Positions 24,302 through 41,149 of a stretch of 43,329 nt of DNA are shown here, piece by piece. The notes below the pieces were generated by a model that ran no database searches, had not been told where the DNA came from, and saw only the letters and a list, made by a program, of their open reading frames with translations. The position numbers and the translations under genes are program-made. The stretch spans positions 1 to 43,329 of the forward strand of contig CAMUJH010000033.1 of assembly GCA_947089145.1 (NCBI GenBank), read 5' to 3'. Positions within the stretch are counted from its first letter, which is position 1, and each line of letters begins with the position of its first letter. The stretch is from an uncultured Hungatella sp. Its GTDB lineage: Bacteria; Bacillota; Clostridia; Lachnospirales; Lachnospiraceae.

Positions 24302-25681
24302 CTATTTAATAAAGCCGAACACATTCAGCAGGACAATGATCATGAATACGGGAACCACCCCCACGGTCATGGCTTTGTCCCACCTGGTAAGCCTGCCGTC
24401 GCGGCCGTCTGCTGTCAGTTCTTTTTCATAGTCCTTCCATCCCCAGATCTTCCATACAAAGAAGCAGGTAAGCAGGCAGCCAAGAGGCAGAAGCACATAT
24501 CCGGTAAAGCAGTCAAACCAGTCATAGAACCCATAATACTCCATCCCCCCGAAGCTTGGCCAAGGCAGCTTTATCCCTTTAAGCGGCCCGAACCCCAGGG
24601 ATGTGAGAATATTGCCGGCTCCAATTACCGACGCAGCCGCAATAATGGCCTTCTTTCTGCCCAGATTCATCTTGATCTCAAAGGTGCGCACGCTAATCTC
24701 TATAAAAGAAAACAGGGAGGAGAATACGGCAAAAAGCAAGGCTATGAAAAACAGCGCGCCGATAAAACGGCCTCCAGGCAGATTCTTAAAGATTCCAGCC
24801 ATTACGTCAAAGATCAGCGCCGGCCCTTTCTGGACGTCAACGCCTGCGCCAAAGGTAGCCGGGATAATGACAAAGCCTGCAAGGATCGCTGCTATGGTGT
24901 CCATGTAGCTAATAAACAAAGCGTCCTTGCGAATATTGTTCTCCCCCGGAACATTGGCTCCTAACGTGGTAAAAATCCCCCAGCCGATACCTATGGAAAA
25001 CAGAACCTGAGTTACCGCATCCGCAAAAACCTTTACGCTGAATTTTCCAAAATCCGGAAGCAGATAATATTTTAGGCCTTCCAGAGCTCCTTCCGCCGCA
25101 AACATGCTGTAGATCCCGCAGACAATAAGCAGCACAAACAACGCCGGCAGCATAACCTTTGAAATTTTTTCAACGACAGTGGTAATTCCGAACAGAAGCA
25201 GGAATACAACAATAAAAAGGACAATAAAGCTGTAGATCAGAGGCTGTATGGGATCTGAAATAAAGTTCTGATAAAACAACTCCGGGTCATCGCCAAAATC
25301 ACCGCTGACAATAAACTGAATTCCGTAGCGCAGGACCCAGCCGCCTACGACCACATAGAAAAAGTTGATCATGATGGTACAAATGTTAGCCATCCACCCT
25401 ACAAATCCCCACCTACTGCTGATTTTCTCAAATACGGAAACCGTATCCGACCGGCCGTGCCTGCCAATGGCTGTCTCCATCTCCACCATGGGCTTGGCCA
25501 GAAGCAGGACAATAATAATATAGGTAAAGATAAAGATTCCTCCGCCTCCGCCATAAGCAAGGTAAGGAAATTTCCATATATTTCCAAGCCCGATGGAGGC
25601 TCCCGCCGCCACCATGATATAACCGAATCTTGATCCCCATTTGGCCTCTTTGGTGTACTGGGCCGTGTTTTTGTCTGACAT
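24302..25681 (-). CDS. Sodium-dependent transporter, NSS/SNF family
   Basis: This is a Na+-coupled symporter of the LeuT fold, probably for an amino acid or related amine. The 459-aa product has about 11-12 membrane helices. The first carries the family sequence GAS-x-GLGNIWKFPYLAYGGGGG, with the unwound sodium and substrate site. Later signatures are SIGIGWGIFTTLGANVPGE and FAVFSSLFSFIEISVRTFE. I chose ATG at 25681 (MSDKNTAQYT) because it follows GGAGGG and because the in-frame upstream extension is the overlapping acyltransferase-like gene read in another frame. The start is one base after the stop of that gene, and the ribosome site lies within it, so the two are translationally coupled. 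Confidence 0.93.
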   Translation of the reverse strand: MSDKNTAQYTKEAKWGSRFGYIMVAAGASIGLGNIWKFPYLAYGGGGGIFIFTYIIIVLLLAKPMVEMETAIGRHGRSDTVSVFEKISSRWGFVGWMANICTIMINFFYVVVGGWVLRYGIQFIVSGDFGDDPELFYQNFISDPIQPLIYSFIVLFIVVFLLLFGITTVVEKISKVMLPALFVLLIVCGIYSMFAAEGALEGLKYYLLPDFGKFSVKVFADAVTQVLFSIGIGWGIFTTLGANVPGENNIRKDALFISYMDTIAAILAGFVIIPATFGAGVDVQKGPALIFDVMAGIFKNLPGGRFIGALFFIALLFAVFSSLFSFIEISVRTFEIKMNLGRKKAIIAAASVIGAGNILTSLGFGPLKGIKLPWPSFGGMEYYGFYDWFDCFTGYVLLPLGCLLTCFFVWKIWGWKDYEKELTADGRDGRLTRWDKAMTVGVVPVFMIIVLLNVFGFIK

Positions 25682-25682
25682 A

Positions 25683-26390
25683 TTATTTTCCCTCCTTCTG
25701 TCTGTCTGGTTCTGCGCTGCCTGGGGCTTGGCTGTCTGGTTCTTCCTGGCTCCGATCAAGATTGTAGACTTCAGAATAGTGAATAATCTTGTCGAAATCG
25801 AAATACCCCCAGTTTGGAATGCGGGTCTTCCTCGGTATGGTGGAGCCGCTGGTAATAATGCAGCCTTTCCCGATGGAAACTCCGGTGGATACTGTGGCTC
25901 TTGCGCATATAACGGTTCCGGTTCCGATCTGGGTATCATCCGGTATAAAGGCGGAGGGATGAACCAATGTTGGAATCATAAAGCCAAGGCCAGTCAGTCT
26001 TTCCATCCACGTTCTTCTCGTCTCTTCGTCACCTACTGCCACCGTGGCTATGGGATACTCTTCGGCAAAATGTTCCAGCTCGCTCCACTTCCCGAGAATC
26101 CCGGCGCCTGCGGTCGCATCATCCAAAAAGTTAATTTTTGAAAAAATGCGCAGACCCTTTGCGATTTCGTAGACATCTGTCCCATGGCTTCCGGCACCCA
26201 GAATCAGCAGGTTCATCTCTCTTGGCCTGGCCATTTTCTGCAGCTGGTACTCCCTTTTTTCCCTGGCCTCTTCTTCGGTGCTGCCATAGCAGTATCCGTA
26301 TATGATCTTTCCGGATGAATCCCGGCCCTTTATGTATCTGGCCTCATATCTGCCATCCGTGCGTATGCGTACATTATCGCCCTTCTTCAT
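25683..26390 (-). CDS. Integrase-type arm-DNA-binding domain fused to a degenerate PglD/NeuD-like acyltransferase
   Basis: This 235-aa protein has three parts. Residues 1-55 (KKGDNVRIRTDGRYEARYIK, then GRDSSGKIIYGYCYGSTEEE with an Ala-Arg-Glu-Lys helix) match the AP2-like, three-stranded arm-binding N terminus of tyrosine recombinases. No catalytic recombinase domain follows. Residues 59-140 are the Rossmann half of NeuD/PglD acyltransferases (LLILGAGSHGTDVYEIA). Residues about 144-200 are a short left-handed beta helix (VHPSAFIPDDTQIGTGTVI). In PglD-type enzymes the catalytic pair sits in a segment like IINTSSVIEHE. Here the matching segment is IITSGSTIPRK, so His is replaced by Arg187, and the helix then stops early. 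I infer that the protein has lost enzyme activity and is now a DNA-binding sensor. M59 has no usable ribosome site, whereas ATG at 26390 has GGAGGACAAGGAGA. Confidence 0.8.
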   Translation of the reverse strand: MKKGDNVRIRTDGRYEARYIKGRDSSGKIIYGYCYGSTEEEAREKREYQLQKMARPREMNLLILGAGSHGTDVYEIAKGLRIFSKINFLDDATAGAGILGKWSELEHFAEEYPIATVAVGDEETRRTWMERLTGLGFMIPTLVHPSAFIPDDTQIGTGTVICARATVSTGVSIGKGCIITSGSTIPRKTRIPNWGYFDFDKIIHYSEVYNLDRSQEEPDSQAPGSAEPDRQKEGK

Positions 26391-26430
26391 TCTCCTTGTC
26401 CTCCGTTGTGAATTGTAATTTGTGGGGTTA

Positions 26431-26450
26431 AGTGGTCAATAGTGGTCATT
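26431..26450 (+). repeat. Two tandem 10-bp AGTGGTCA boxes
   Basis: AGTGGTCAAT and AGTGGTCATT lie head to tail at exactly 10-bp spacing; the preceding TGTGGGGTTA may be a third, decayed copy. They are 13-32 bases inside the expected transcript of the fusion gene. Tandem sites at one-helical-turn spacing are how arm-type sites for integrase N-terminal domains are usually arranged, so this is a candidate binding site for the fusion protein. Confidence 0.7.
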
Positions 26451-26469: not shown

Positions 26470-26498
26470 ATAATACGGATTATAGAGGATAATGTCAA
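26470..26498 (-). promoter_or_regulatory. Sigma-A promoter of the arm-domain/acyltransferase-like gene
   Basis: On the minus strand a perfect TTGACA and TATTAT are separated by exactly 17 bases. The start of transcription would be near 26463, giving a leader of about 70 bases. AGTGGT boxes flank the promoter on both sides, which suggests control by a protein binding both and looping or blocking the DNA between. Confidence 0.85.
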
Positions 26499-26522: not shown

Positions 26523-26542
26523 ATGACCACTTTATAAGTGGT
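26523..26542. repeat. Inverted pair of AGTGGT boxes upstream of the promoter
   Basis: ATGACCACTT and AAGTGGT form a perfect 7-bp inverted repeat with a three-base centre (26526-26542). The left arm is an exact inverted copy of AAGTGGTCA seen on the other side of the promoter. On the minus strand it can also fold after the EPS operon and is followed by CATAATTTTAT, so it may double as a weak terminator. Confidence 0.65.
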
Positions 26543-26576: not shown

Positions 26577-27440
26577 TTAATGGTCCTGATCATGGACTTT
26601 GATTACATCCTTTGCTGAAAGGCCCATAATGTGCTCGATTTTATCTCCATCACCCCACACGGCTTTTGAATCATAGGGACGATCCGGAAAAGCTCCGTAC
26701 TTCAATTTTATGTTATACCCGTTCTCTTTGATAAACCGCTCCACCCGATCAGCCAGTTTTTCTGGACGGCCAGAGCAAATATTAATCACGCCGGTAATCC
26801 AATTTTGGCTTACTGCCCTGGCAACCTGTTCGCAAAAGTCTTCATAATCAATAAAATCAAACTGATTCTGCCCCATTGTAAACGGGAACTCCTCTCTTTC
26901 CTCTGTCTCGGCTGCCGTGATCTTTGAAAAAATCGAAGAGCCATACTGGCTGTTTCCTACAATATAATAGCCCCGCAGCCAAAGAAAAGTCTTATTTTTC
27001 TGTTTACAGAACATCTCTGTAAGATCTCTCAATGCATTCTTACTGATCCCATATGGTGTAGTCGGCCTGCATGGAGTGTCTTCTTTAATGCTTCCCTCAT
27101 AAAAGCCAATCTCGTGCATAGAACCCATAACGGCTATAGCCTTTACATCTGACTCGGCAAATGATTTAATAAATGCATAGTGTTTAGGCAGATCGTCAAT
27201 ATGGGAATCCGAGTAATGGACAAAGCCATCTCTCCAGGCCAAATGAAGAAGCACGTCAGGCTCGCCGAAATAAGTATAAGGATCTGGAACTTTAAAAAGA
27301 TCACATGGCCGTTTTATTGCTCTCCCATCAATGCGATCAACCGTAACATCTGCTGCAACTACTTTATTTCCATTATCAAGCAGATGTTTTACAATTCCTT
27401 GTCCCAAATAGCCATTTGCACCTGTTACAAGTATTATCAA
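26577..27440 (-). CDS. NAD-dependent epimerase/dehydratase (last gene of EPS operon)
   Basis: This is a short-chain dehydrogenase-type nucleotide-sugar enzyme, acting in the cytosol on a nucleotide-diphosphate sugar for the polysaccharide. The 287-aa product has the NAD-binding motif ILVTGANGYLGQG at its N terminus, Ser and Tyr-x-x-x-Lys catalytic residues (AVMGSMHE; PYGISKNAL), and a C-terminal substrate domain. It lacks features that would tell 4-epimerase from 4,6-dehydratase or reductase. The start is TTG, with GGAGG seven bases upstream; no ATG lies nearby. It is 31 bases behind the nitroreductase-like gene and is the final gene of the operon. Confidence 0.88.
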   Translation of the reverse strand: MIILVTGANGYLGQGIVKHLLDNGNKVVAADVTVDRIDGRAIKRPCDLFKVPDPYTYFGEPDVLLHLAWRDGFVHYSDSHIDDLPKHYAFIKSFAESDVKAIAVMGSMHEIGFYEGSIKEDTPCRPTTPYGISKNALRDLTEMFCKQKNKTFLWLRGYYIVGNSQYGSSIFSKITAAETEEREEFPFTMGQNQFDFIDYEDFCEQVARAVSQNWITGVINICSGRPEKLADRVERFIKENGYNIKLKYGAFPDRPYDSKAVWGDGDKIEHIMGLSAKDVIKVHDQDH

Positions 27441-27471
27441 TTCTGCACCTCCATTCCTCTTCTCACATGAT

Positions 27472-28461
27472 TCAGATTACTTCAATCTCAGCAGGCCGTC
27501 TCTCGCTTCTTGTAGTTAGCGTTTTTTTGGGATAGCTGCCTACGCCTAAAAAAAGAATCATCATTTCGGCATCATGCAGCTTTAGAATCACTCTGATCCG
27601 ACTCTCCTGAGCGTCTGTAAGAGAGGCGCTTAGGGGAACGCATCCGATCCCATAATAAAACAGCGCATTGATTACTCCTTCCGCATACATTCCGCCATCA
27701 ATAAACGCCTGAAACACTTCCCGGTCTTTCTGTTCCGTTCGCAGATCAGCGGTAATAACCAAAAGCTTGTCAAATTCATGGCCAAATCCTTGATTGCCAT
27801 TTTGGTTGTGCATAACAGACTCCATAATCGTCTTATCCTGAATAATCCTTGTCCTCCACCCCTGTCGGTTACACGCAGACGGAGTGTATTGCGCTAAAAA
27901 TATAGCTTCCTTAAGAAGTGAAATGCTGACAGGCTGATCCGCAAAGTGGCGGATACTATGTCTGGAGGTCATCAATGTCTTATAATCCATCTTTTTTGTG
28001 TCATCAACAGTGACTGGAGTTATCTCGATTACGCCGCCAAGGCTGTTTCTCACTCCTGGAAGTTTTAGGATCTTGTTTTCTAATTCAGGATCAGAGATTC
28101 CGTGCCGTCTGTTTTTATCAATATATTCATGGAGGCATGACAGCGAAGTGCTGTATACAAATGAATTTATATCATAATTGCGGGAATATTGTTCCATGGA
28201 GAGAATCAGCTTCTTAATATTTTCTTTTCCAAAGCCCGGCCTGTAATCCGGGAAAGACAGGCCCTTCTCTACTGTGTGATACAGCCTCGCTATTGAGGCT
28301 TCCAGCTGAACTTTATCATAACATTTTCCGTCGGCAAAGCTGTACCTCTTAAACCTTTTATAGTAATTATGTAATGTATGCCTGACAGTATGCCTTCTGC
28401 ATCTATTTGCAAAGAATGCCAAAAGCCCAGAGCATCCTGCGGCTAATTTATAAGCTTTCAT
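27472..28461 (-). CDS. Nitroreductase-family protein in polysaccharide operon, 329 aa
   Basis: This is a flavin-binding-fold protein of the nitroreductase superfamily. The N-terminal 150 residues are an added helical region with a basic start. The flavin domain begins near TLMTSRHSIRHFADQPVSIS, followed by LAQYTPSACNRQGWRTRII and a C-terminal MILFLGVGSYPKK, all recognisable from the family. Members with this architecture occur in capsule and exopolysaccharide loci, often close to pyruvyl transferase genes, but their reaction is not established. A redox change to a sugar or to the pyruvate-modified polymer is conceivable. It lies directly behind the flippase gene and ahead of the terminal epimerase. 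Confidence 0.82.
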   Translation of the reverse strand: MKAYKLAAGCSGLLAFFANRCRRHTVRHTLHNYYKRFKRYSFADGKCYDKVQLEASIARLYHTVEKGLSFPDYRPGFGKENIKKLILSMEQYSRNYDINSFVYSTSLSCLHEYIDKNRRHGISDPELENKILKLPGVRNSLGGVIEITPVTVDDTKKMDYKTLMTSRHSIRHFADQPVSISLLKEAIFLAQYTPSACNRQGWRTRIIQDKTIMESVMHNQNGNQGFGHEFDKLLVITADLRTEQKDREVFQAFIDGGMYAEGVINALFYYGIGCVPLSASLTDAQESRIRVILKLHDAEMMILFLGVGSYPKKTLTTRSERRPAEIEVI

Positions 28462-28513
28462 TTTTTCGTCATTCCTTTCACATTATTTCGTCTCAAACAT
28501 GTGCCTTTTTCCT

Positions 28514-29923
28514 CTATCTAGGATGAATCTTTGCTCTAAGAGCACGAAAGACATTGTTAAGAAGTTTCTGATTTATCACTGTGCCAAAGGTGATTCCAAT
28601 CATAATATTCAATAAAATTGAAAGCCATGTATTAATCCAGCACAGAAGACACATTAAAGAAAGAACTGCGATGCAATTTAGAATTAATTTATTATGGTAT
28701 CTGATCCGTTGAAATTTCTTTATATAGAGGATTCTGAATATTGACAGCGCTGCATAACTGACCAGCGTAGAAACAGAAGCGGCATAGATTCCGCATTTGT
28801 TAACTAAAAGTAAGTCTAAAAGCAAATTTATGATAGCTGCCCCTATTGTCGTAATCCCAACATTTCTGGTTCTCTTATGCGCAATAAATATACCGCCTAA
28901 AAATGACGCGATACCCGAGAAATATACGCCGATAAATAATATCGGTATCTGTGCATAGGACTCGTCATAGTCCCCCCGTATAAGCATTGAAAATAAAAAA
29001 GGGCTGAAGCAGATCAGCAGTGCCATAATTCCTGTTAAGATGCGAAGAACGTTTTCAAACATAACAGAGTAGTAATTTTCCGCATCGCCATCCTTAATAG
29101 CCAATGAGGCGTTTTCCTGCCATGCATATATAAAAGTTCCTTGAACCGATGTAAACAGCGAAGGGATCTTATATGCAACACCATATACTGCAGTTGTCTC
29201 CAGACCTAAAAAAGAGGTCAGAATCAGTCTGTCAGATGCATCCAGTATCCATGCGGACAGGGAATTCGGTATCATAGGCCAGGAATATTTAAGCAGTCTT
29301 GACAACTTCTCCTTAGAAAACGTGCGTAAATCTATATATCTCACAAGATGCGCTTTGCGGGCTAAAACCGCTATGGCCCCTGCTGTAGCTGCCGCAAATG
29401 AGATCAATACGCCATTTAGGCCCAGATTCCCCAAAGAAACCAACAGAATAACCAGTATCATATTGGAAGAAGACTGCACAACAGAACTTAATGAATATAA
29501 CTTGTTATAAGATAGCCCTCTCACAACCTGCTGGGTTCCTACGAAAACGATATCAACAAAGTAATACAATACGATAAGTATTCTTGTTAAGAATTCTATT
29601 TCAGAAAGCATTGCAAACAATATGGCAAGTACTATTAATGATATGGGGATTAAGACAGCATATATATTTGTTATCACTGATTTCTTTTCGTATTCATTAT
29701 CCCTGCAGTCGATCAAAAAACGGAACGCCCCTGCCTGAATCTGGAGTGTTGCAATCGGAAGCAGAAGGGTAACCAGCGTCTGCAGCAAATCGTATGATCC
29801 ATATTCAAGCCTGGTCAAATGACTGGTTATCACTGGAATCGTGACAAGTGCTGCAAATTTGGGCAAAAAAGTGCCGATAAATAAAATAAATGTATTCTTT
29901 ACAAGTTCCTTTTCCCTGTTCAT
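28514..29923 (-). CDS. Wzx-type polysaccharide flippase
   Basis: This protein moves the lipid-linked repeat unit across the cytoplasmic membrane. The 469-aa product has 12-14 membrane helices and begins KELVKNTFILFIGTFLPKFA, the RfbX/MATE-like signature. Typical polar residues appear in early helices (Arg in FLIDCRDNEYEKKS) and PMIPNSLSAWILDASDRLIL in the middle. Length matches the MOP-superfamily Wzx group. It overlaps the pyruvyl transferase gene by four bases (ATGA), showing coupled translation. Together with the Wzy-like polymerase and an initiating phosphotransferase it defines a Wzy-dependent pathway. Confidence 0.92.
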   Translation of the reverse strand: MNREKELVKNTFILFIGTFLPKFAALVTIPVITSHLTRLEYGSYDLLQTLVTLLLPIATLQIQAGAFRFLIDCRDNEYEKKSVITNIYAVLIPISLIVLAILFAMLSEIEFLTRILIVLYYFVDIVFVGTQQVVRGLSYNKLYSLSSVVQSSSNMILVILLVSLGNLGLNGVLISFAAATAGAIAVLARKAHLVRYIDLRTFSKEKLSRLLKYSWPMIPNSLSAWILDASDRLILTSFLGLETTAVYGVAYKIPSLFTSVQGTFIYAWQENASLAIKDGDAENYYSVMFENVLRILTGIMALLICFSPFLFSMLIRGDYDESYAQIPILFIGVYFSGIASFLGGIFIAHKRTRNVGITTIGAAIINLLLDLLLVNKCGIYAASVSTLVSYAALSIFRILYIKKFQRIRYHNKLILNCIAVLSLMCLLCWINTWLSILLNIMIGITFGTVINQKLLNNVFRALRAKIHPR

Positions 29924-31197
29924 TCAGAAATTTCCGCCTCTGTCTCTCCATTTATACAGCCGTAAGGCCTCATGTTTTCCTTAGATGTAAATATGTCAAA
30001 GCAGTTCTCTTTCCTTATGGCATAAAGATATTCTAAAATAATTTTACTCTGCAATTCATAAGTGCTGCACATCTCTTTTACCGCCCGCAATATGTCAGTC
30101 TGGTCTACAGTTCTTAATATGTCATAACAAAATTGTCCTTGGCCAACCGTTTCTGTTAATTCCTTATACTTTACCGCCCACCCCAGTACGATACAAGGTA
30201 TCCCGTTTCTATATGCATGGACAGTAGCGTGAAAACGAGAGCTGACACTGAATTCAAAGTTTTTTATAAATCGGTCAAATTCCAGGCAGGAAAAGTCATA
30301 ATCTATCAGATGGACATTGACATTTGACTTAAAGAGCTCCTTAATGTCTGTACATAACTTTAAGTCCTCGCCTGCATGTCTGAACACATAAATGTCCTTT
30401 CCATTTTCTAACAGCAGCTGTATAATTCTTTGATAAATATTAATTAGCACGCTGTAATTTCCATGAATGACGCATTGTTGATTTGGAATAACTGCCACAT
30501 TATGTTTGGTATCAATATTCAGGCTTTTTATTTGCGGAATAATTTTATAAATATTTGACAAATCAATACCCGTGTTCTGCAGGACAATGTCAGCTGACTT
30601 TTCAACATTACTCAGTGAAAAGCCTTCTGTTAACAGTCCATATCCTTCCCATTCCCTGGCATATATTTTTAACGGATATGGCAGTAATTCCTTCATTTCA
30701 TCTAATATTCCTTTATCCTTTTCATCATAGTCAAACGGACCAAATGACTGGGGCATGACAACCATTGGGATTTTATAGAGTTTTGCCAAGCGGATATAGT
30801 TTAAAAAATTTTCGCTCCCGGCAGCTCCCCATTTTGAACCTAAATTGTATCCGCTAATATCTGCTATAAGGGTTATATCCTGAATCAATTCCTTTAATTC
30901 GTAAAATCGCTTAATCTCTAAAACTTCTCTATGCATAATCTTTTTGATTATGTTTTTTAATATCCTGACCAAAAGGATGCGATACTTCCTTTTGCTGTCC
31001 AGGGCAATCTGCATCGCTTCCTCGTTATAAAAAACAGGATAAAATGTCAAATTGCTGAATTCCGGAAGGCTCTCCCATGTTGTAAAAAAGATCTCAGCAT
31101 CAGGCAGACGATTTCTGATTTCATTCACTGCGATAAACAGCATGGATTGCGCACCCTTGTTATTAAAATTAGCTCCTGTGATAAGTATCTTTTCCAT
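29920..31197 (-). CDS. Polysaccharide pyruvyl transferase
   Basis: This enzyme adds a pyruvate ketal from phosphoenolpyruvate to a sugar of the growing polymer or repeat unit, giving it negative charge. The 425-aa product matches the CsaB/WcaK-type family: MEKILITGANFNNKGAQSML at the N terminus (the NxGDxA-like motif), PMVVMPQSFGPFDY in the middle, and SSRFHATVHAYRNGIPCIVL near the end with the conserved His. I chose ATG at 31197, which has GGAGA six bases upstream, rather than the longer frame. The gene overlaps the flippase start. Confidence 0.9.
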   Translation of the reverse strand: MEKILITGANFNNKGAQSMLFIAVNEIRNRLPDAEIFFTTWESLPEFSNLTFYPVFYNEEAMQIALDSKRKYRILLVRILKNIIKKIMHREVLEIKRFYELKELIQDITLIADISGYNLGSKWGAAGSENFLNYIRLAKLYKIPMVVMPQSFGPFDYDEKDKGILDEMKELLPYPLKIYAREWEGYGLLTEGFSLSNVEKSADIVLQNTGIDLSNIYKIIPQIKSLNIDTKHNVAVIPNQQCVIHGNYSVLINIYQRIIQLLLENGKDIYVFRHAGEDLKLCTDIKELFKSNVNVHLIDYDFSCLEFDRFIKNFEFSVSSRFHATVHAYRNGIPCIVLGWAVKYKELTETVGQGQFCYDILRTVDQTDILRAVKEMCSTYELQSKIILEYLYAIRKENCFDIFTSKENMRPYGCINGETEAEISE

Positions 31198-31264
31198 TTT
31201 TTCTCCGCTGATCATTAGTTTAAGACAGTTCCTGCATAATTCAGTAATTAGCGCAAATAGAACA

Positions 31265-32158
31265 TCAGTCCATGGGTCGTTTTTGCCTATGTCTGAAATA
31301 GTAATATATTTTCACCGCAGCCGGATACAGCCCAGCTTTATACATCCCGGATACAGCCAGGTTTCCTGGCCAGCCGAGAAATGCGATTGCCATTTTCATA
31401 CATTGCTTAAAATGAATATTATTCTCAGCAATAAGCTGGTTCGCAACTGCTAAACTGATTTTTCCAATATCATTAAGCGATGCCGATCTCTTTGAAAACA
31501 ATTCCGGGTGCTTCTGTCTCAGCATATAGACTGATCTAACAAATTTTTGACCGCTGCTGCTTATTGAATTATCGCCGGTATAGTATTCGACAAGCACTGT
31601 GTCCAGGTAATAGACAGAATACTTTTTAACAATTCTGTACAGCAGCTCAAAGTCCTGTAATCTCGGCATATCATTATCAAATCTGCATTCTGAAAAAACG
31701 CATCTTCTGCCGAGAATAGACTGTGTTCCAATATTTATGAGAGAGCATTTGTCACTTAGGAATCCTTCCTTCAGCTTTTTAGGAATATCCACAGTGCCAT
31801 ACGTACCAATATCAGCCATTTTGCAGAAAATAACGTCAGCCTTATTTGCCAGTAATGCCTCATATTGAATCTTTAGCTTCTCTGGCAGCCAGATATCGTC
31901 ACTGTCATGGAATGCGATATAATCTCCTTTGGCTATATCTATTCCATGGTTCCTTGCTGCGCAGGCACCTTGATTAGGCTGGTAAACATATTTCAGCCGT
32001 TCATCTCTGATCTCTTGAATCACATTGGCCGAATTATCTGTTGAACCATCATCAATGACAATTAACTCCATATCCCTATATGATTGGTTTAACACGCTCA
32101 TAATCGCCCTTTTTATAGTATTCTCTCTGTTATAAACCGGGATTATAACTGATATCAT
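31265..32158 (-). CDS. Family 2 glycosyltransferase
   Basis: This is a cytoplasmic GT-A enzyme that adds one sugar to the lipid-linked repeat unit. The 297-aa product has the full GT2 N terminus: ISVIIPVYNRENTIKRAI, ELIVIDDGSTDNSANV, and the DxD-type metal site FHDSDDIWLP. The C-terminal part varies and holds DMPRLQDFELLYRIVKKY, with an acceptor-site acidic pair. No membrane helix is obvious. It sits 14 bases after the acyltransferase gene, with GGAGG before ATG. The sugar donor cannot be predicted. Confidence 0.93.
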   Translation of the reverse strand: MISVIIPVYNRENTIKRAIMSVLNQSYRDMELIVIDDGSTDNSANVIQEIRDERLKYVYQPNQGACAARNHGIDIAKGDYIAFHDSDDIWLPEKLKIQYEALLANKADVIFCKMADIGTYGTVDIPKKLKEGFLSDKCSLINIGTQSILGRRCVFSECRFDNDMPRLQDFELLYRIVKKYSVYYLDTVLVEYYTGDNSISSSGQKFVRSVYMLRQKHPELFSKRSASLNDIGKISLAVANQLIAENNIHFKQCMKMAIAFLGWPGNLAVSGMYKAGLYPAAVKIYYYFRHRQKRPMD

Positions 32159-32172
32159 CTATACCTCCAATT

Positions 32173-32802
32173 TTATAAATGCCTTTCTTGAAACGCTTCC
32201 ATAATCCTGTCAATATTTTCATCATTAATTTCAGTTCTGCAAAACCTGCTGTACTTGTCTCCACCCCTGTGCTGTATTTCTGCAAAATCAATTTTCTGGA
32301 TTTTCGAAATAATCTCTTCGGAAAATCTTTTCTTAATTATTTTTGTCCCTGCATAAATTGAATATGCGGGAATGTTATGAGTTACGATTGATCGGGCTCC
32401 GATTACGGCTCCTTTTCCTATTGTAACTCCAGGAAAAACCAATGCCCCATACCCAATCCACACATCATCTTCTATAACAATATCGTCCTGTCTGCAGGGC
32501 TGGGCATCTATGCCTTCACCCAATTCCTTTTTGTATACTTTAGAGTAAAACGGATACGTGGATATGCAGCTGTAATTATGCCGCCCTCCCATCATGAAGG
32601 TTACCTCGTCTCCTATAGAACAGTAATTCCCTATTAAAATGTACAATTCAGGATTGTAGCATACGATGTTCAGATTGCCATAAGTTCCCCGCCCCACTTT
32701 TACATGAGTCAGAGGAAAAAGCGAATTCAGGCGGCTGAAATTATGTCTGTTCATTCGTCTCCAGGCTATTCTTTTAATTAATAATTTTACACTCTGAATC
32801 AT
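32173..32802 (-). CDS. Left-handed beta-helix acyltransferase (CatB/Vat-like)
   Basis: This is probably an O-acetyltransferase that decorates a sugar of the polymer. The 209-aa product has hexapeptide repeats through residues 35-155 (VKVGRGTYGNLNIV, then IVIEDDVWIGYGALVFPGVT and AVIGARSIVTHNIP). The likely catalytic His lies in GGRHNYSCISTYPF, as in xenobiotic acetyltransferases. An AGAGG site precedes ATG. The first 29 bases overlap the end of the polymerase gene, so the two are coupled. It is the second of two apparently intact acyltransferases in the operon. Confidence 0.9.
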   Translation of the reverse strand: MIQSVKLLIKRIAWRRMNRHNFSRLNSLFPLTHVKVGRGTYGNLNIVCYNPELYILIGNYCSIGDEVTFMMGGRHNYSCISTYPFYSKVYKKELGEGIDAQPCRQDDIVIEDDVWIGYGALVFPGVTIGKGAVIGARSIVTHNIPAYSIYAGTKIIKKRFSEEIISKIQKIDFAEIQHRGGDKYSRFCRTEINDENIDRIMEAFQERHL

Positions 32803-34030
32803 CTGTAAGCCTCTTCCTCCCCTGGGAGTTCATTACACATCCGGCATCCAATCTGGGATTGCAAATTTTTCTCACTCTTATTCTGCTTAAATCTCCTAAA
32901 ATGAAAAATACAACAAGTGACGTGGCTGCATCCCGGAAGGTATTATAAAAAAACATAAATACAATTAACATGCAAAGCAGCGAATAGTAGACGCTGCAGA
33001 ATCCCTGGCGGTGCCGTCTGACGCTGAATTTGTCTATATATTTTATTATCAAAAGAAGCAAAAGAAAAAGAATAGCCGCAAAGAGATAAATTCCGGCGAT
33101 CCCTCCTGCCATAACCGCATCAATAAATCCAGTGCAGGCATTCAGCACTACTGTATGCAGCCGGTGCCCCTCAGCTGCAATGCCGAAATCGGGGAACAGG
33201 TTCTTTGAAACTATAAGCGGTATCAGTGAAACTGCAAATACAGCTGCTGAATTGGGTGATGGGGAATAATGCGTAATATTCAGGTTTAAATTTGCCAGCG
33301 GACTTGTTATGTATGAATAAACCCAGGCAAATTGTTCTGGCAGCCAGGCAGGCCAGTTGGAATTAATTTTTCCTACAGACAATATCAGATGCGAATCATT
33401 CCATTGATAATGAGAGCGCAGATTAGTCAATCCTCCGTTAATGTAAATAATTATGCAGCCGATCATAATAATCACAGTCATCTTTTTCCAATCCAGGACT
33501 TTTTTGTTTTTTGATGCCTTTGTCAAAGACAGATTCAAAAAATTAAAGAGACACATGACCGCAGCTCCTTTTAAAAACATAAGCATCAGGAATATCAGCG
33601 GAATAAACGATTGGCATAGCCGTTTTTTTTGCCTGGTTTCCAAAAATATGTAAAAAAAATATGCGGAGTAGAATATTGACGCGTTCACTAATATTGAGTG
33701 AAATAAAGGCAATCCGTTAAATTCACCATAAGATCTCCTTCCTGATATAATAGCGAACAGAGGTATGTCTCCTGCATAGATAATATCCAGCACTCCCGCA
33801 ATAGCAACAAAACATAAGCCTGCCAAAGGAACATGATCCGTATCTTCTGTATGTGTGTACTTGAGTATATGCCTGTTTTTCATCCCCAAAAATAAGCTTA
33901 TGATAATCGTTATTAAAAAAAACAGATTCAGCGCAGGGGCAGTGGCATAATTCATATCAGACAATTTCAAATTATAGAGCGTCAAAACCACTCCCCATAT
34001 GATTGAATAGTAGTAGAAAACATTAAGCAC
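32774..34030 (-). CDS. Wzy-like O-antigen/EPS polymerase
   Basis: This is a polytopic membrane protein that links flipped repeat units into polymer. The 418-aa product has about 11-12 membrane segments and one long extracytoplasmic loop near residues 200-290 (with TNLRSHYQWNDSHL), the usual plan for Wzy proteins, which share little sequence. I chose GTG at 34030 because a strong GGAGGG lies six bases before it. The longer frame overlaps the previous gene and would begin with a poor site. The gene is AT-rich, like its neighbours. The assignment rests on topology and context. Confidence 0.75.
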   Translation of the reverse strand: MLNVFYYYSIIWGVVLTLYNLKLSDMNYATAPALNLFFLITIIISLFLGMKNRHILKYTHTEDTDHVPLAGLCFVAIAGVLDIIYAGDIPLFAIISGRRSYGEFNGLPLFHSILVNASIFYSAYFFYIFLETRQKKRLCQSFIPLIFLMLMFLKGAAVMCLFNFLNLSLTKASKNKKVLDWKKMTVIIMIGCIIIYINGGLTNLRSHYQWNDSHLILSVGKINSNWPAWLPEQFAWVYSYITSPLANLNLNITHYSPSPNSAAVFAVSLIPLIVSKNLFPDFGIAAEGHRLHTVVLNACTGFIDAVMAGGIAGIYLFAAILFLLLLLIIKYIDKFSVRRHRQGFCSVYYSLLCMLIVFMFFYNTFRDAATSLVVFFILGDLSRIRVRKICNPRLDAGCVMNSQGRKRLTDDSECKIIN

Positions 34031-34055
34031 CTTATTCCCTCCAAGGAAAAACATC

Positions 34056-36047
34056 TTATTTCCTATAATATGTTCTTTTTTGATATTTTTTAAGCATATC
34101 ATAATATGGCAGCGGAACTTTAAAAACACTTTTTAAAAACAGACTCTTACTATGGTTCATCTTAAATTCCCTGATAAATCCTGGCAAATGAAAAAGCCAA
34201 TACCATAGGCTTTTCTGAGAAACCAATGATGAAACCTCAACATCCATTGTTGAAAATATCTTTATCATGTCTACTGTGCCGTTGGAAGGGTTTAACAACA
34301 GATTTTTGTACTGTTCAAATGCCGTCTGACAGGAAAATGAAAGCTGGATGTCCGCCAGTGCGCCGGACATATAATCATCAAGAAATTTAAACGCGGCATC
34401 CTGGATCTGTTTTAGAGCATCTGCGGCAGCACCTTTATTCTCCGGTTCAATCATAACCGGAACTTCTTTGCCGTTTACATTGTCAAACCGGATTACAGTA
34501 CCATTAACTAAATCCATAAATAACAGTTCGAAGACTTGTCCAGTCAGAGAGATTGCGCAAAAGTCATCACACACGTCTCCAATATCAATAAATAAAGCAC
34601 CTCTCTTATTTTCAATATTATGTCCCTGTACTCTGGAATCCAGCTGAACGCCGAAATAGTACCCAACAGGTACATCCGGAAAGCAGTTTTGAAAATAACC
34701 GGCTAATTTATCCTGCATGGTTCCTCTCCATCCAACGTCAACGATGGCAATATGTTCTGCCCCTTCTGTTTTATTCAATAGATATCTTTCAAACAATAAT
34801 TTCTGACTGGCGGAATATTGGCGGATCAATGGCAGAATATTATTTTCAAAATTTTCTTTTATCTCTCTGCTTTTATTAAAGTTTAACGTCAATAAATCCG
34901 CATCTGGAGATATTCCACAAGATTTTGAAAAGCTGTCAACCGTATCTCTTCCTAAAAGTCCTAATCCCGATAGTTCATTTAATGACAAACTATGGACTGA
35001 AAATGTTTTTAATGAATTAAACAGATCCTCTATGCTGTCTATATTAAATAAAGCACATCCGGTTACGGCTCGTCTTGAAACTCTTAGTATGTCTGTTTCG
35101 CCTTTACGAGAGGGACAGACTTTAATAAATGCCTTCTCCAAGATCACCCCTTCTCTGGCCAGAAAAAGGAATTTAGTATTATACCCGTTTTGCGCATCCA
35201 GCCAATTGGAAAATGACAGCAGTAAGGGGCCAAGGACTTCATATCCCAGCTTTTCATAGTTAGAATAATTTTTATCCTCATGCAGTTCGATGAATTTTCT
35301 TAATATTCTATATTCCAAATTATTACTATAGTACCGTTTGTTTTTTAATCGGACAATGCATTGACGATTCGCAAACAATCGTATCAGGCTTGACCTTATT
35401 CCCTTTCTCTTTGCATTTAAATAGTCGGATCGCAGTGAATCACCGATATGCATCATGTCACATGGATTAATCCGCTCTTTCTGTAAAACGGCATCGAATA
35501 AATCCCCTGTATATTTTGTGAAACCTTCTTCTGACGAAACATAAAGCGACGAATATCCTTTTATTTTGCATTTGCTAAGGATTTTTTCAATGACAGTCTT
35601 CCTAAGCGGCGTGTCGGATATAATTATAATTTTTTTCTTTTGTCTGCGAAAAAGCTCAAACAGTTCCAATATCTCCGTTCTGGGACAGCAAAACAAAACT
35701 TCCGTTTCTTCTTCCAAAGCTGTCAATTTATTGATCTGCTGTCCATCTATGCCAGGATATGCGCGATATATCTCCTCTAATGTTGCTTCTAACGGATGAT
35801 TTCTTTTTAACGCTTTTCTTTCCGCCTCCAATCTCTTTTTCACAAACTCTTCGGGACTGCATCCTGTTATTTCAGATGATTTCAATCCGACGATATAAAA
35901 AATATCCAAGGAAACAGGAACGTATCGTGTTATAAGAGTATCAAACAGATCAAAAGAAATTATCTTGCAGCCGTCTGCCGCTTTTCTAATATTGTCAATA
36001 TCACTTTTGCATAAAGATGTTAAAATACCTTTTATGACTGTATTCAT
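34056..36047 (-). CDS. HAD-domain protein of the COG5610 type, 663 aa
   Basis: This is a two-part protein of unknown reaction found in polysaccharide loci. Residues about 28-225 form a HAD hydrolase: ISFDLFDTLI (motif I, Asp-x-x-Asp-Thr), IIIISDTPLRK (motif II), and MMHIGDSLRSDYLNAKRKG (motif IV). The C-terminal 430 residues form a second globular region with FLFLAREGVILEKAF and IAIVDVGWRGTMQDKLAGYF. That pattern is shared by COG5610-like proteins and may be a transferase fold. No membrane segment is present. Its place between the GT2 gene and the polymerase suggests that it modifies or links phosphate-bearing residues, but this is inference. Confidence 0.8.
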   Translation of the reverse strand: MNTVIKGILTSLCKSDIDNIRKAADGCKIISFDLFDTLITRYVPVSLDIFYIVGLKSSEITGCSPEEFVKKRLEAERKALKRNHPLEATLEEIYRAYPGIDGQQINKLTALEEETEVLFCCPRTEILELFELFRRQKKKIIIISDTPLRKTVIEKILSKCKIKGYSSLYVSSEEGFTKYTGDLFDAVLQKERINPCDMMHIGDSLRSDYLNAKRKGIRSSLIRLFANRQCIVRLKNKRYYSNNLEYRILRKFIELHEDKNYSNYEKLGYEVLGPLLLSFSNWLDAQNGYNTKFLFLAREGVILEKAFIKVCPSRKGETDILRVSRRAVTGCALFNIDSIEDLFNSLKTFSVHSLSLNELSGLGLLGRDTVDSFSKSCGISPDADLLTLNFNKSREIKENFENNILPLIRQYSASQKLLFERYLLNKTEGAEHIAIVDVGWRGTMQDKLAGYFQNCFPDVPVGYYFGVQLDSRVQGHNIENKRGALFIDIGDVCDDFCAISLTGQVFELLFMDLVNGTVIRFDNVNGKEVPVMIEPENKGAAADALKQIQDAAFKFLDDYMSGALADIQLSFSCQTAFEQYKNLLLNPSNGTVDMIKIFSTMDVEVSSLVSQKSLWYWLFHLPGFIREFKMNHSKSLFLKSVFKVPLPYYDMLKKYQKRTYYRK

Positions 36048-36099
36048 TCTAATTTTACCTCTATAGCGGAACCCGTAAATCAGTTATATCTCAACAGCA

Positions 36100-36918
36100 T
36101 CATGTGCGAAACTTTTCTCCTAAAAAGAAGTCCAGTGTTTTGAATTTGAGAGAATACCTTACTTTCATAATAAATACGTCGAAATAATAATATATTCGAT
36201 GCAGAAATGTATCACTGCAAAATATTTTATAATCTTTTACAAACATCCGGATTCTCTTTACAGACTGCTCTTTATTATCCGTGTATCTGGAATAATTCTG
36301 TTTCAATGTGATATCCTTAGCAACCACGATTTCTGTTCCATTTTGCTTTGCTCTTCTTATAAAGTCATGATCAATGCAGTCTAAAAACATATCTTCATTA
36401 TATTTACACTGCTGAAAAATTTTTTTTGGAATAACCATTCCACTGTTAATTGCGCTGATATCAGAGGGAATTGAATAAATATTTTTAATAGGCTTATATC
36501 TGTACAGACATATTTCTACTGGTGAAAAAATAGCTTTATCTGCTATTACAACAGGTATAATAATGGAAGAAGGCGAGCTTTTAATATATGATTTTATTTT
36601 GGTAAAAAAAGTGCTTTCTATGAGAGTATCATCATCAAAAATACAGATAAAATCTCCTTTTGCAATTTTGACGGCACGATTATATGCTTTGGAAAGCCCT
36701 TCATTTCCATCCATTTTTAAGTATGTAATATTATATTCTAACGCTGACAGTGAATTATCTATGTCCACATCATCGCTGTTATCGCAGACGATAACCTCCG
36801 TATTCGGCATACAGGAATTCCTGATCGAATCTAATGATTTTGATTTATCCAAATAAATATTGTATATCACGACAATTATTGAAATTTCTATCACTTTGTT
36901 TTTTATATTCTCTTCCAT
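36100..36918 (-). CDS. Family 2 glycosyltransferase (rhamnosyltransferase-like)
   Basis: This is a GT-A enzyme that acts on the lipid-linked repeat. The 272-aa product has ISIIVVIYNIYLDKSKSLDS, TEVIVCDNSDD, GNEGLSKAYNRAV and the metal site CIFDDDTLI. The DNS and NEGLSKAYN motifs resemble the rhamnosyltransferase branch of GT2. I chose ATG at 36918 with AGAGGG about ten bases upstream over a TTG eight codons earlier. The gene is very AT-rich. Donor specificity is a guess. Confidence 0.88.
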   Translation of the reverse strand: MEENIKNKVIEISIIVVIYNIYLDKSKSLDSIRNSCMPNTEVIVCDNSDDVDIDNSLSALEYNITYLKMDGNEGLSKAYNRAVKIAKGDFICIFDDDTLIESTFFTKIKSYIKSSPSSIIIPVVIADKAIFSPVEICLYRYKPIKNIYSIPSDISAINSGMVIPKKIFQQCKYNEDMFLDCIDHDFIRRAKQNGTEIVVAKDITLKQNYSRYTDNKEQSVKRIRMFVKDYKIFCSDTFLHRIYYYFDVFIMKVRYSLKFKTLDFFLGEKFRT

Positions 36919-36952
36919 ATGATAATAAGATCCCTCTGTCAATTTTCCATCT

Positions 36953-37555
36953 TCATATGCTGTCCCAGGTATTTGTATCTGTATTAAATTTCTTTATCGG
37001 ACATGCTGGAACTCCTGCTGCAATGGTATTTGGAGGAATATCTTTTGTTACCACGCTATTGGCCCCTATTACTGCCCCATTCCCAACTGTCACTCCCGGC
37101 AAAATAACAACGTTATCCCCAGCCCAGACATTGTCTCCGATAATAACGGGAGTGCTGAATAATTTTCTTTGTGTGGGCGGTTCGTCCGGAACGGAGCAAT
37201 CCACCCCTGTATAATTCCCATGGCTTGTATCGCTTATAAATAACTTTGATGCTCCTAAAAAGTTATCCCCTATTCTGACTTCATTGGTCGCCACAATATG
37301 GCAGTAATCTCCAAGCTCGCAATTCCTCCCAAGAAACAGAGTCGTTTTCTCAATATTAATCAGATCAAATCTGCAGCCGCGCCCTACGCTTAATCCTTTA
37401 CCATATATTAAGCTCTTTTTCCCTCTCATACTGACTGGATAGGTAATTAACTTTGCCTTGGGATAAAATAACCTGGTAAGAATAACGGATATGCCCAGGA
37501 TAATTGTCTCATTCAAGGAGTATCTGTTTTTATATATCAATTCTAAAGACATCAT
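36953..37555 (-). CDS. Left-handed beta-helix acyltransferase (maltose/galactoside acetyltransferase type)
   Basis: This is a probable O- or N-acetyltransferase for a sugar of the polymer. The 200-aa product has hexapeptide repeats and the catalytic His in SDTSHGNYTGVD. The C-terminal VIIGDNVWAGDNVVILPGVT, followed by NGAVIGANSVVTKDIPPNTI and GVPACPIKKF, is the standard ending of the WbbJ/LacA-like group. I chose the first of two adjacent ATGs (37555) because an AAGGG site lies seven bases before it. The gene overlaps the end of the previous glycosyltransferase gene by 26 bases, so translation is coupled. Confidence 0.9.
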   Translation of the reverse strand: MMSLELIYKNRYSLNETIILGISVILTRLFYPKAKLITYPVSMRGKKSLIYGKGLSVGRGCRFDLINIEKTTLFLGRNCELGDYCHIVATNEVRIGDNFLGASKLFISDTSHGNYTGVDCSVPDEPPTQRKLFSTPVIIGDNVWAGDNVVILPGVTVGNGAVIGANSVVTKDIPPNTIAAGVPACPIKKFNTDTNTWDSI

Positions 37556-38516
37556 CCACCCACCCTTTTGCCGTATATTTCTTGATAATCTGATCATCTA
37601 TTTCTTCGTACTTTTTACTGAAGAAAGTATCAGGAATGGCTTTTTCATTCCGGTCTATGACCATAATATTATTAGGATTGTAAAAGTCATAGTTAACAAT
37701 ATCTGCGTTTGTTGTTACTATTTTTTTCTTTAATCCCACTGCTTCCAGCGTCCGCATCGTCAAACCAGTCTGATTCTTATCGTTTGCATCTAGTATAGCC
37801 TTTGATTTCGATGCTATTATCTCCAGTTCCCCTGAAGGCATTGCCGTAAAAGATATGCTGTCCTTATTAAATTTTCTGAATCCGCTGTTGGTTAACCAGT
37901 AAAACAGCAGCATAAACCTTCCCCGCAAATAGCAAAATGAATAGAATTTATAACTATTATTTTCGCAGAATAGCTTCAGGTTTTGTATTATTCGGAATCT
38001 GTCCCCATACATTGTCCCATAAAAACATAAATCATATTCTTCAGCCATGCTTTCCCTAGGTTCAAGATCACAGAAAAGCGGACGGAATTCAAATTTGTAT
38101 CTGCGGCAGTCGTTTGGATCAAAGGAGATTACCCTGTTGTACAGGGAAAGTCTGTTTATGATTCCTTTTACATTTTTTACTGAATCGTATAGGTACAGTA
38201 TCCGCTGGGCTCTGGGCCATCTGTCTTTAAAAGCCTTTAGTATCCTTTTGGAAATCATTTCGCCTTTTATTATAAGTATGCAATCAATATCAACATTGAC
38301 TTTTGACAATATGTTCTGATAATACGTCCATGCTTTAGGATAAAATATGGCTGGAGCAACTGAGTTTACCGCTCTGCCAAGCGGTGATTTTACACACCGC
38401 TCATCAAACCAAAACACGGTTGCCCCGTAATCCTCTAATACTCTTATGATTCCCTTGTCTATCCCGAAAAATTCCGGTGATATAAACAGAATCTTTTTTC
38501 CTGTCATAGTACTCAT
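37530..38516 (-). CDS. Probable glycosyltransferase (CgeB/GT-B-like)
   Basis: This is a cytosolic protein of 328 aa. Its N terminus (KKILFISPEFFGIDKGIIRV) and the pattern of two Rossmann-like halves suggest a GT-B glycosyltransferase of the CgeB or Glyco_trans_1_2 kind. The C-terminal half contains ASKSKAILDANDKNQTGLTM followed by RTLEAVGLKKKIVTTNADI, which is the usual donor-binding segment with conserved Arg-x-x-Glu. The start at 38516 follows GAAGGG at seven bases. It begins four bases beyond the epimerase stop. Identification is by pattern only. Confidence 0.7.
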   Translation of the reverse strand: MSTMTGKKILFISPEFFGIDKGIIRVLEDYGATVFWFDERCVKSPLGRAVNSVAPAIFYPKAWTYYQNILSKVNVDIDCILIIKGEMISKRILKAFKDRWPRAQRILYLYDSVKNVKGIINRLSLYNRVISFDPNDCRRYKFEFRPLFCDLEPRESMAEEYDLCFYGTMYGDRFRIIQNLKLFCENNSYKFYSFCYLRGRFMLLFYWLTNSGFRKFNKDSISFTAMPSGELEIIASKSKAILDANDKNQTGLTMRTLEAVGLKKKIVTTNADIVNYDFYNPNNIMVIDRNEKAIPDTFFSKKYEEIDDQIIKKYTAKGWVDDVFRIDI

Positions 38517-38520
38517 ATCA

Positions 38521-39375
38521 TCACCCTTCAGTTCTTCTAATGCTTTCGTCAAAATCAACAAGGCAATATTTGAATCCATAATAATCTGATAAACTCAGAT
38601 CATAGCAATCATCTGCAAAAGCACGGCGAAATAACTTTATCCTTTTCGCCGCATATCTGACTGCCCAGTTGAACATTCGGGGAAACCAGATTTTTCTCTT
38701 ACTGCATTTTACAATTTCCCTGACCAGGTCTGCAGTGGATACAAGTTCTTTATTCTGCGGCGTAAAGCATCCGGATGCTCTATCATCAATAATCATCCGG
38801 ACAAATTCGCATAAATTGTCGATATATATCATGCTTTTTTTGTTTTTATAATCTGGAAAAACAGGCGTCCTCTTTGCTATCCTGCTAATTCCCCTGTAGT
38901 TTCCCGAACAGTCCTTTCCATAGACGAAGGGAGGCCGGAGACTTGCAACTTTAAAGCCTTTGCCGGCCAGTTTTTGAATTCCCATATCCCCCTGAAGTTT
39001 GCTGTCTCCGTAAAAGCTCGTTGGGTTGGTTTTCCGGCGATCTGTGATATAGCCGCAGCAGTCGCCATACACATTCATGGAGCTGAAAAAAATGAAATAG
39101 GAAACTCCATGTTCCTTTGCCCATGCGGCAATCTCAATGCTAAGGTCTGTATTAACCGAGTAAAACAGTTCCCGCATATCTTCTGTAATATGATTAATAT
39201 GAGCGATTCCCGCAGAGTCAATGACTGTGTCAAACTTTGAGAAATCTGTTTTTTTCCATACTCCGTTAACAGATCCGGCTATTTCAACATGATAATCCTT
39301 AGGATAGCGCTCCAGCCATTTTTTCACTGACTCACCAATATAACTGTTCTTTCCAATTATAAGAATATGCCGCAT
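38521..39375 (-). CDS. NAD-dependent epimerase/reductase
   Basis: This is a nucleotide-sugar SDR enzyme of 284 aa. It has the Rossmann start HILIIGKNSYIGESVKKWL, the catalytic Ser in IFFSSMNVYGDC and Tyr-x-x-x-Lys in SFYGDSKLQGD. SLRPPFVYGKDC and SMIYIDNLCEFVRMII are typical of the UDP-glucose 4-epimerase-like group. It is the first of two such genes in the operon. Its exact step is not predictable; supplying the activated sugar for the initiating transferase is plausible. GGAAGG lies ahead of ATG. Confidence 0.88.
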   Translation of the reverse strand: MRHILIIGKNSYIGESVKKWLERYPKDYHVEIAGSVNGVWKKTDFSKFDTVIDSAGIAHINHITEDMRELFYSVNTDLSIEIAAWAKEHGVSYFIFFSSMNVYGDCCGYITDRRKTNPTSFYGDSKLQGDMGIQKLAGKGFKVASLRPPFVYGKDCSGNYRGISRIAKRTPVFPDYKNKKSMIYIDNLCEFVRMIIDDRASGCFTPQNKELVSTADLVREIVKCSKRKIWFPRMFNWAVRYAAKRIKLFRRAFADDCYDLSLSDYYGFKYCLVDFDESIRRTEG

Positions 39376-39399
39376 GCGATTATCCTTCCGCTCTCCCCT

Positions 39400-40524: not shown

Positions 40525-40546
40525 TTTTTCTTCTCTCCATTCAACA

Positions 40547-41149
40547 TTATCTGTTCTTCCTGTCCTTTTCCTCTTGATACACATTTTTTCCGGAAAGCAC
40601 TGTCCCAATGATGCCAAAAAAAATCTTAAAATCATTCATAAACGTAATATTCTCCACATAATCCGCATCCATCTCAAATTGCAGCGTTCTCGTAGATGCG
40701 GCGCGGTATTTGATATCTACTGTGCAAAACATTCCGGGAAGAACCTGGTATCTTAATTGGTATCTTGGATACTTCCTGTATGGTTCAAATTCCCAGTCAA
40801 GAATTGGCCGCGGGCCAATAATAGACATTTCGCCTTTGATGATATTTATTATCTGGGGAAGTTCATCAAGACTGGTTCTTCTCAAAAAGGCGCCTACTCT
40901 TGTAATTCTGGGATCATCTGATCTGTGTGCAATTCCTCCTATCTCATAAGCATGATCCCACATTGTGCGGAATTTCAGCACCTTAAATTTATCCTGGTTC
41001 TTTCCCAGCCGCTCCTGCCTGAATAAAACAGGCCCTTTCGAGTCTATTTTAACCGCAAAAGCGATGATCGCCATTGGAACGGCACACACAATCAAGCCTG
41101 CGCAGCTAAGAAGTATATCCAGCAGTCTCTTCCAAAATGTGCGATACAT
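40547..41149 (-). CDS. Initiating undecaprenyl-phosphate sugar-1-phosphate transferase (PglC-like)
   Basis: This enzyme begins the repeat unit by moving a sugar phosphate onto undecaprenyl phosphate at the cytoplasmic face. The 200-aa product is the small monotopic type. It has one N-terminal reentrant hydrophobic segment (LLDILLSCAGLIVCAVPMAI), then VLFRQERLGKN, FKVLKFRTM, the catalytic Asp-Glu in RRTSLDELPQIIN, and KGEMSIIGPRP. All are hallmarks of the bacterial sugar-transferase family. The length matches the catalytic core alone, as in PglC. It is the commitment step for the polymer. GGAGG lies upstream of ATG. Confidence 0.95.
   Translation of the reverse strand: MYRTFWKRLLDILLSCAGLIVCAVPMAIIAFAVKIDSKGPVLFRQERLGKNQDKFKVLKFRTMWDHAYEIGGIAHRSDDPRITRVGAFLRRTSLDELPQIINIIKGEMSIIGPRPILDWEFEPYRKYPRYQLRYQVLPGMFCTVDIKYRAASTRTLQFEMDADYVENITFMNDFKIFFGIIGTVLSGKNVYQEEKDRKNR

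Follow-up and report, generated by a model that had tools for sequence, protein, structure and literature searches.

A rare fusion of an integrase arm-type domain to a PglD-like pseudo-acetyltransferase in Clostridia and Erysipelotrichia, a candidate autoregulatory one-component regulator

DNA binding by the ROK repressors (Mlc/NagC) and by Rex is carried out by winged-helix/HTH domains. Among tyrosine recombinases and their descendants, negative autoregulation is established for integrases, IntS and others (PMC2951348, in the part of that paper drawn on here), and MrpR of SPbeta is a proven repressor with a recombinase fold, in which the first Arg, the His and the residue at the His/Trp position are gone and the Lys and Tyr remain (PMC10516654). 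In PglD, an acetyltransferase of the NeuD/PglD type, His15, Asp35 and Asp36 are discussed at the UDP-sugar site in the excerpt of PMC8040287. Among the papers listed in a search of the literature, chiefly of openly licensed work, there was no protein in which an integrase arm domain is joined to PglD. Here we describe a gene of this design whose product is probably an autoregulatory one-component regulator, the arm domain binding DNA and a catalytically dead PglD shell holding a nucleotide sugar. This reading is drawn from sequence, namely the architecture, the loss of the catalytic His, the boxes and their spacing, the operon position, the single clade formed by the fusions and their relatives with a dead recombinase. 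That the fusions together constitute a new family of one-component regulators, in which the arm domain reads helically phased TGACCA boxes and the dead PglD senses a nucleotide sugar, is a proposal towards which we lean, if only slightly.

The window, that is, the whole stretch of 43,329 nucleotides from an uncultured gut Hungatella sp. that was analysed, carries the fusion gene at the 3' edge of a capsule operon. The features are as follows, from high to low coordinates:

26577..42366, minus strand: glycan/capsule operon upstream of the fusion gene
41836-42366: NusG-like (LoaP-type) gene at the head of this 16-kb glycan operon, which adjoins the fusion gene
26577-27440: SDR gene, the last of the glycan operon
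26523..26542, minus strand: inverted box pair ACCACTTATAAAGTGGTCAT, upstream of the -35
26470..26498, minus strand: promoter, -35 TTGACA at 26498-26493, 17 bp, -10 TATTAT at 26475-26470 (consensus match by eye)
26429..26448, minus strand: tandem boxes TGACCACTAT-TGACCACTTA, 10-bp period, between the -10 and the ribosome-binding site
26392..26404, minus strand: ribosome-binding site GGAGGACAAGGAG (by eye)
25683..26390, minus strand: fusion gene, integrase arm-type domain plus PglD-like pseudo-acetyltransferase, 235 aa
26226..26390, minus strand: arm-type DNA-binding domain, residues 1-55 (from recombinase identity, its place in L098 and the model)
25971..26219, minus strand: PglD_N-type Rossmann domain, residues 58-140, with GAGSHG and FLDD
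25779..25970, minus strand: shortened left-handed beta helix, residues 141-204
25830-25832, minus strand: codon of Arg187, at the catalytic His column
24302..25681, minus strand: sodium-dependent transporter, SNF-type (NF037979)

The TAA of the fusion gene (25683-25685) ends one base before the ATG of the symporter at 25681, and the two genes are likely to be co-transcribed. The consensus promoter is bracketed by the inverted pair ACCACTTATAAAGTGGTCAT before it and the tandem TGACCACTAT-TGACCACTTA after it, and AGTGGTCAT and ATGACCACT form an inverted repeat on either side of it. The sequence TGACCAYTNNTGACCA occurs in a single copy in the 4.46 Mb of the own genome, as the tandem pair at this promoter, while a strict inverted-box pattern found no match in that genome because the upstream pair of the window has TACCACT on one side.

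The N-terminal part of the window protein is an arm-type domain of the tyrosine recombinases. It is 43-64% identical to recombinases of the same family and genus, the equivalent domain of L098 sits before a SAM-like domain, and the predicted structure of the window protein has strands at residues 7-9, 15-23 and 29-36 and a helix at 39-52, a beta-beta-beta-alpha order that fits the AP2-like/arm-type fold as read from the whole-protein model. When solved structures were searched by sequence profile, the arm domain drew chance matches only (best E 0.021), and no Pfam or PHROGs model marks the domain in the window protein. In the fold search with the whole model the matches were filled by PglD structures, so that the absence of an arm fold among them proves nothing. 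Neither the profile search nor the model contains a recombinase catalytic domain (R-K-H-R-H/W-Y) in the window protein. What follows instead is a PglD_N Rossmann domain and then a hexapeptide beta helix, found alike by profile, model and fold search; against TIGR03570 the protein scores 96.5 bits with a cut-off of 160.8, covering only positions 1-138 of the 202 of the profile. The recombinase identity and the three-strand-plus-helix model thus bear out the earlier note in its assignment of an arm-type domain with no recombinase behind it, as the agreement of profile and model does for the NeuD/PglD-type Rossmann fold with a short beta helix.

The same note had read the catalytic His as replaced by Arg, and Arg187 indeed stands at the PglD His column. 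It had further called for a tally across homologues with the same N-terminal fusion. In one alignment the His (the His125 column of PglD) is present in 0 of 20 two-domain and 0 of three three-domain fusions and in all 26 unfused relatives. The two-domain proteins have Arg (14), Ser (2), Lys, Tyr, Asn or Glu (1 each) in its place and the three-domain proteins Tyr, Tyr and Phe. Read by eye, three further proteins have Leu (L176), Ala (L178) and His (L177, a recombinase fragment joined to a PglD that keeps its His), while L172 has GFHA in this region in an ambiguous register. Six unfused PglD-like rows (L128, L153, L156, L159, L018, L024) stand outside the tree and the His count, as the extraction rule missed them; L128, L018 and L156 among them have the His. 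L024, an unfused PglD-like protein of 173 aa reading VVEPYS, is the sole exception noticed among unfused relatives, with no catalytic His. The N-terminus modelled as beta-beta-beta-alpha and the aligned homologues devoid of the His are the reverse of the two outcomes that the note had named as speaking against its proposal.

The loss of the His is set in a nucleotide site that is otherwise retained. None of the 49 rows of the alignment departs from G65, G70, D90 or D91, and H69 is kept in 19 of 20 two-domain and in all three three-domain fusions; in the motif alignment made here H69, D90 and D91 correspond to His15, Asp35 and Asp36 of PglD. Given that these GAGxHG and LDD residues are kept, a nucleotide sugar is a plausible ligand of the PglD shell. 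Acetyl-CoA is less likely to be the ligand, as the beta helix is shortened past the active site: 12-48 residues follow the active-site column in two-domain, 36-47 in three-domain and 36-83 in unfused proteins, the 83 being a floor for the upper end since unfused rows were cut at a fixed length. The missing coils are those which we take to form the acetyl-CoA site.

The genes that follow the fusion gene are of two main kinds; gene names in the loci come from visual reading unless Pfam, NCBIfam or marker searches supplied them. In 14 of the 24 loci, L056 of the culturable Kineothrix sp. MSJ-39 among them, glycan genes lie downstream, chiefly those of a DegT/PglE-like aminotransferase and a PglC-like transferase, with a gap to the next gene below 50 bp in 8 of the 14. 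Transporter genes lie downstream in 8 of the 24: the sodium symporter in the window, BCCT transporters in L040-L042, and oligopeptide or branched-chain amino-acid ABC systems in L043-L046, with the ABC transporter of L043 and L044 coming after a His-bearing PglD. Neither kind follows in the remaining two loci (L055, L057). In the tree the eight genes linked to transporters group on a single branch (support 85). Six of their loci still have genes for glycans or a PglD close by: the window and L040-L042 stand at a glycan locus, and L043 and L044 contain sugar genes and a PglD. In L045 a PglD that keeps its His and an acyltransferase-like gene lie at least 4.7 kb downstream (by eye). L046, which heads an oligopeptide-transport operon, is the only one with no glycan-synthesis gene in its 11.1 kb (by marker search and by eye). 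The His-bearing PglD genes at L043:5763-6407, L044:6992-7651 and L045:13850-14539 have the GHD motif and belong to the same gene run as the fusion gene and the ABC transporter. The link to a capsule operon drawn in the earlier note therefore applies to the 14 glycan-linked loci; the transporter context found in 8 of 24 makes it only one of two.

This context is what keeps alive an alternative that we regard as unlikely, in which the fusion still acts as a NeuD/PglD-family sugar N-acetyltransferase that carries a DNA-binding tail and can dispense with the His. In the related enzyme QdtC the His is not essential, and His mutants keep reduced activity (PMC2943079). Of the 24 genes, 14 precede DegT (PglE-like) and/or PglC-like genes; the fusion gene of L059, between PglF-like and PglE/PglC-like genes (by eye), stands in the place expected of an active PglD; and 13 of the 14 glycan-linked loci have no other PglD-like match at E 1e-10 in the stretch examined, which is short in several. 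Against such an enzyme stand the consistent loss of the His in the aligned fusions set beside its retention in all unfused relatives, the 12-48 residues of helix left behind the His column where unfused proteins have 36-83, the separate His-bearing PglD of four loci (L043, L044, L045, L052) and the oligopeptide-transport setting of L046. First-gene position before varied cargo likewise fits a regulator better than an enzyme.

The upstream regions of the fusion genes hold the main new result, a DNA footprint. Of 24 fusion genes (the window, 19 two-domain genes, the broken copy L062 and three three-domain genes), 17 have paired, helically spaced TGACCA/AGTGGT boxes in the 230 bp before them, compared with 1 of 300 other ORFs picked mechanically from the same loci, although several loci are near relatives, so that the numbers are inflated and lack independence. 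In 17 of the 24, then, the gene's promoter region has conserved sites, as would be found for an autoregulatory DNA-binding regulator. Inverted pairs occur in 13 and tandem pairs of 9-11 bp in 9. The spacing of the inverted pairs falls into two classes, 12-14 and 22-25 bp, one helical turn apart (13 loci), and that of the tandem pairs is 10 bp in eight loci and 9 bp in one. A de novo count over 23 regions (L044 being omitted as a near copy) returned TGACCA as the most enriched 6-mer, with 51 occurrences against 3.05 expected and presence in 18 regions. The layout seen in the window recurs upstream of diverged relatives, and the flanking repeats of L040 and L042 are not identical; T-runs follow some of the inverted pairs. 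No pair was found at L047, L052, L055, L057, L060, L061 and L109, the last three being all the three-domain genes counted; lone TGACCA words occur twice at L047 and three times at L052, and the word is absent from the upstream regions of L172, L176 and L178, which were read separately. The boxes are linked to the fusion protein by association, and another protein might use them. Nevertheless, the claim of the earlier note that the fusion is a DNA-binding regulator is well supported by the footprint (17/24 versus 1/300), by purifying selection and by the loss of the His in every aligned fusion.

On these grounds we propose a mechanism in which the beta helix would form a trimer that presents several arm domains, and these would grip the phased TGACCA boxes, at the inverted pair upstream of the promoter and at the tandem pair shortly after the transcription start, holding the promoter down. 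A UDP-sugar-like ligand in the Rossmann site may alter this grip, the PglD-type shell presumably being still able to hold a nucleotide sugar with no catalysis. In the window, regulation would extend to the fusion gene itself and to the sodium symporter coupled to it, and in 14 of the 24 loci to the glycan genes after the fusion gene. It is improbable, in our estimate, that the protein binds DNA with no ligand at all and retains the PglD shell only for the trimer: all of the DNA-binding evidence would hold equally, and a beta-helix trimer alone would presumably supply several arm domains, but the near invariance of GAGxHG and LDD in the fusions goes beyond the needs of mere assembly.

Boxes are also found at the genes of unfused arm-domain recombinases in Clostridia (54 loci, L064-L119; the ArgI motif is present in 50, and the frames of L097, L103 and L108 are incomplete), where a tandem box of the type GCAGTCAAA with a 9-12 bp period lies directly upstream of the recombinase gene. 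CAGTC tandem repeats of this period occur in 21 of the 54 upstream regions and in none of 50 shuffles, and GTC repeats in 35 of 54 against a shuffle mean of 2.7, the mirror word GAC giving 3 versus 3.2 (mononucleotide, not dinucleotide, shuffles). TGACCA is not enriched there (7 versus 6.5); TGGTCA before 7 of 9 GENIR recombinases, of which L086, L092 and L103 are near-identical, versus 2 of 45 others is a weak sign. Many arm-domain genes thus have domain-type-specific boxes at their own promoters, as is expected for an autoregulated DNA binder, which suggests that autoregulation may be widespread among the unfused recombinases. The resemblance of the boxes to recombinase arm sites, and the inverted repeat formed around the window promoter by AGTGGTCAT and ATGACCACT, would also suit a role in recombination, the fusion opposing or assisting an intact recombinase at arm sites common to both, as might be the case at a box-flanked invertible promoter. 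We hold this to be very unlikely, as the own genome (87% complete) has no other arm-domain copy at E 0.1, the flanking repeats differ in relatives such as L040 and L042, and a different box is enriched at the unfused recombinase genes.

The fusion family is rare and occurs in Clostridia and Erysipelotrichia. A scan of 84,980 species genomes, which relied on a pair of peptide patterns, with 80 of 438 relatives retained and family size accordingly a lower bound, gave at least 20 further two-domain loci (L040-L059). With the window included there are 20 distinct aligned two-domain proteins; L057 and L058 encode an identical one. The same scan gave the longer proteins L060, L061 and L109 and a broken copy, L062. 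This copy (L062:9977-10693, Longibaculum muris) is interrupted by frame changes but still has a tandem pair of boxes and a pglC-like gene next to it. A further search, family-wide and centred on L060, yielded the two-domain L178, L176, which has a recombinase domain and PglD without an arm domain, and the fragment L177, and L172 was found in the genome of L109. At strict E-values, the full-length fusion is present in 4 of 397 sampled family genomes and 2 of 26 sampled genus genomes, the own genome included in each, and no further one was found in 391 class and 398 phylum genomes sampled, the own genome apart; three phage records and six loci on viral contigs gave arm-domain matches only and no fusion. 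The PglD parts of 23 fusions form a single clade (SH-aLRT 92) within a group of short PglDs in a quick tree of 49 rows with no AU test. Elsewhere, a short PglD with intact His shares one frame of about 540-590 aa with a kinase/aminoglycoside-phosphotransferase-like protein (L005, L007, L008, L012; by eye). Whole-protein dN/dS is 0.044, 0.099 and 0.161 in the three of nine pairs for which dS is not saturated: the fusion recurs under purifying selection. That it is a decaying integrase remnant whose inverted boxes are terminators is barely credible, the broken copy L062 and the T-runs behind some inverted pairs being outweighed by this dN/dS of 0.04-0.16, by the same box sequence and helical spacing across families and by the tandem pairs, which cannot be terminators.

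Four of the longer proteins (L060, L061, L109, L172) still carry a dead tyrosine-recombinase domain between the arm and PglD parts. Structure prediction for the three-domain form, made from three sequences, gave a model of low quality (mean pLDDT 55.2). In the catalytic domains of these four and of L176, ArgI is replaced by Ser or Thr and the Lys and both His are lost, while ArgII and Tyr are kept in all five; with the Phage_integrase model, L060 and L109 score above the cut-off and L061 gives a match beneath it. The order arm-recombinase-PglD would match an integrase with PglD added behind, and since the three-domain forms are basal within one half of the fusion clade, the recombinase domain was probably lost at least once there. 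Candidate precursor layouts can be recognized: at L063:4579-5870 a short pglD with its His and a pglC-like gene follow closely on a broken integrase start, and at L102 (~10001-11900) and L117 (~3090-4400) an arm-domain recombinase that has catalytic motifs is followed directly, on the same strand, by a PglC-like gene. These look like the starting arrangement, if the direction of change is as we suppose. An orphan integrase beside a short pglD at a glycan locus would then have fused to it, and the recombinase would afterwards have lost its catalytic residues and finally its whole catalytic domain.

Should the regulator reading be true, an integrase arm-type DNA-binding domain and a dead PglD sensor would join the parts of which one-component regulators are built, and the level of surface-glycan precursor would be tied to glycan or nutrient-transport operons. 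A mobile-element recombinase could become a regulator acting on the host surface, with probable intermediates surviving, so that the integrase, integrase-PglD and arm-PglD steps would all be visible in living genomes. The predicted operator is short and directly testable.

The fusion differs from each of the systems to which it is closest. Compared with the PglD/PglB acetyltransferase domain (NeuD/PglB/VioB, TIGR03570) the window protein has Arg187 for His125, a shortened helix and an extra N-terminal arm domain, and falls below the cut-off of that family. The GENIF/GENIR recombinases of Clostridia have an N-terminal domain 43-72% identical over the matched stretch and likewise have tandem boxes of 9-12 bp period upstream (CAGTC type, 21/54), but the window protein has no core-binding and catalytic domains, and the box is TGACCA/AGTGGT at fusion genes and GCAGTCA at these recombinases. 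MrpR, in the excerpt of PMC10516654, is the precedent for a recombinase descendant that has lost catalytic residues and acts as a repressor, and the three-domain relatives have lost the same first Arg and His positions. As excerpted, however, MrpR keeps the core-binding and catalytic folds and the Lys and has no PglD, whereas the window protein keeps the arm domain only; with no catalytic domain it is not of the MrpR type, in which the recombinase fold is kept and catalytic residues are lost. IntS of KplE1 binds and represses its own promoter as an integrase, but is still an active recombinase with no sensor domain in the part of PMC2951348 drawn on here. The sensors of the ROK repressors (Mlc/NagC) and of Rex belong to families unrelated to that of the window protein. 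Where Rex joins an N-terminal winged helix to an NAD(H) Rossmann domain, the window protein has an N-terminus modelled as beta-beta-beta-alpha.
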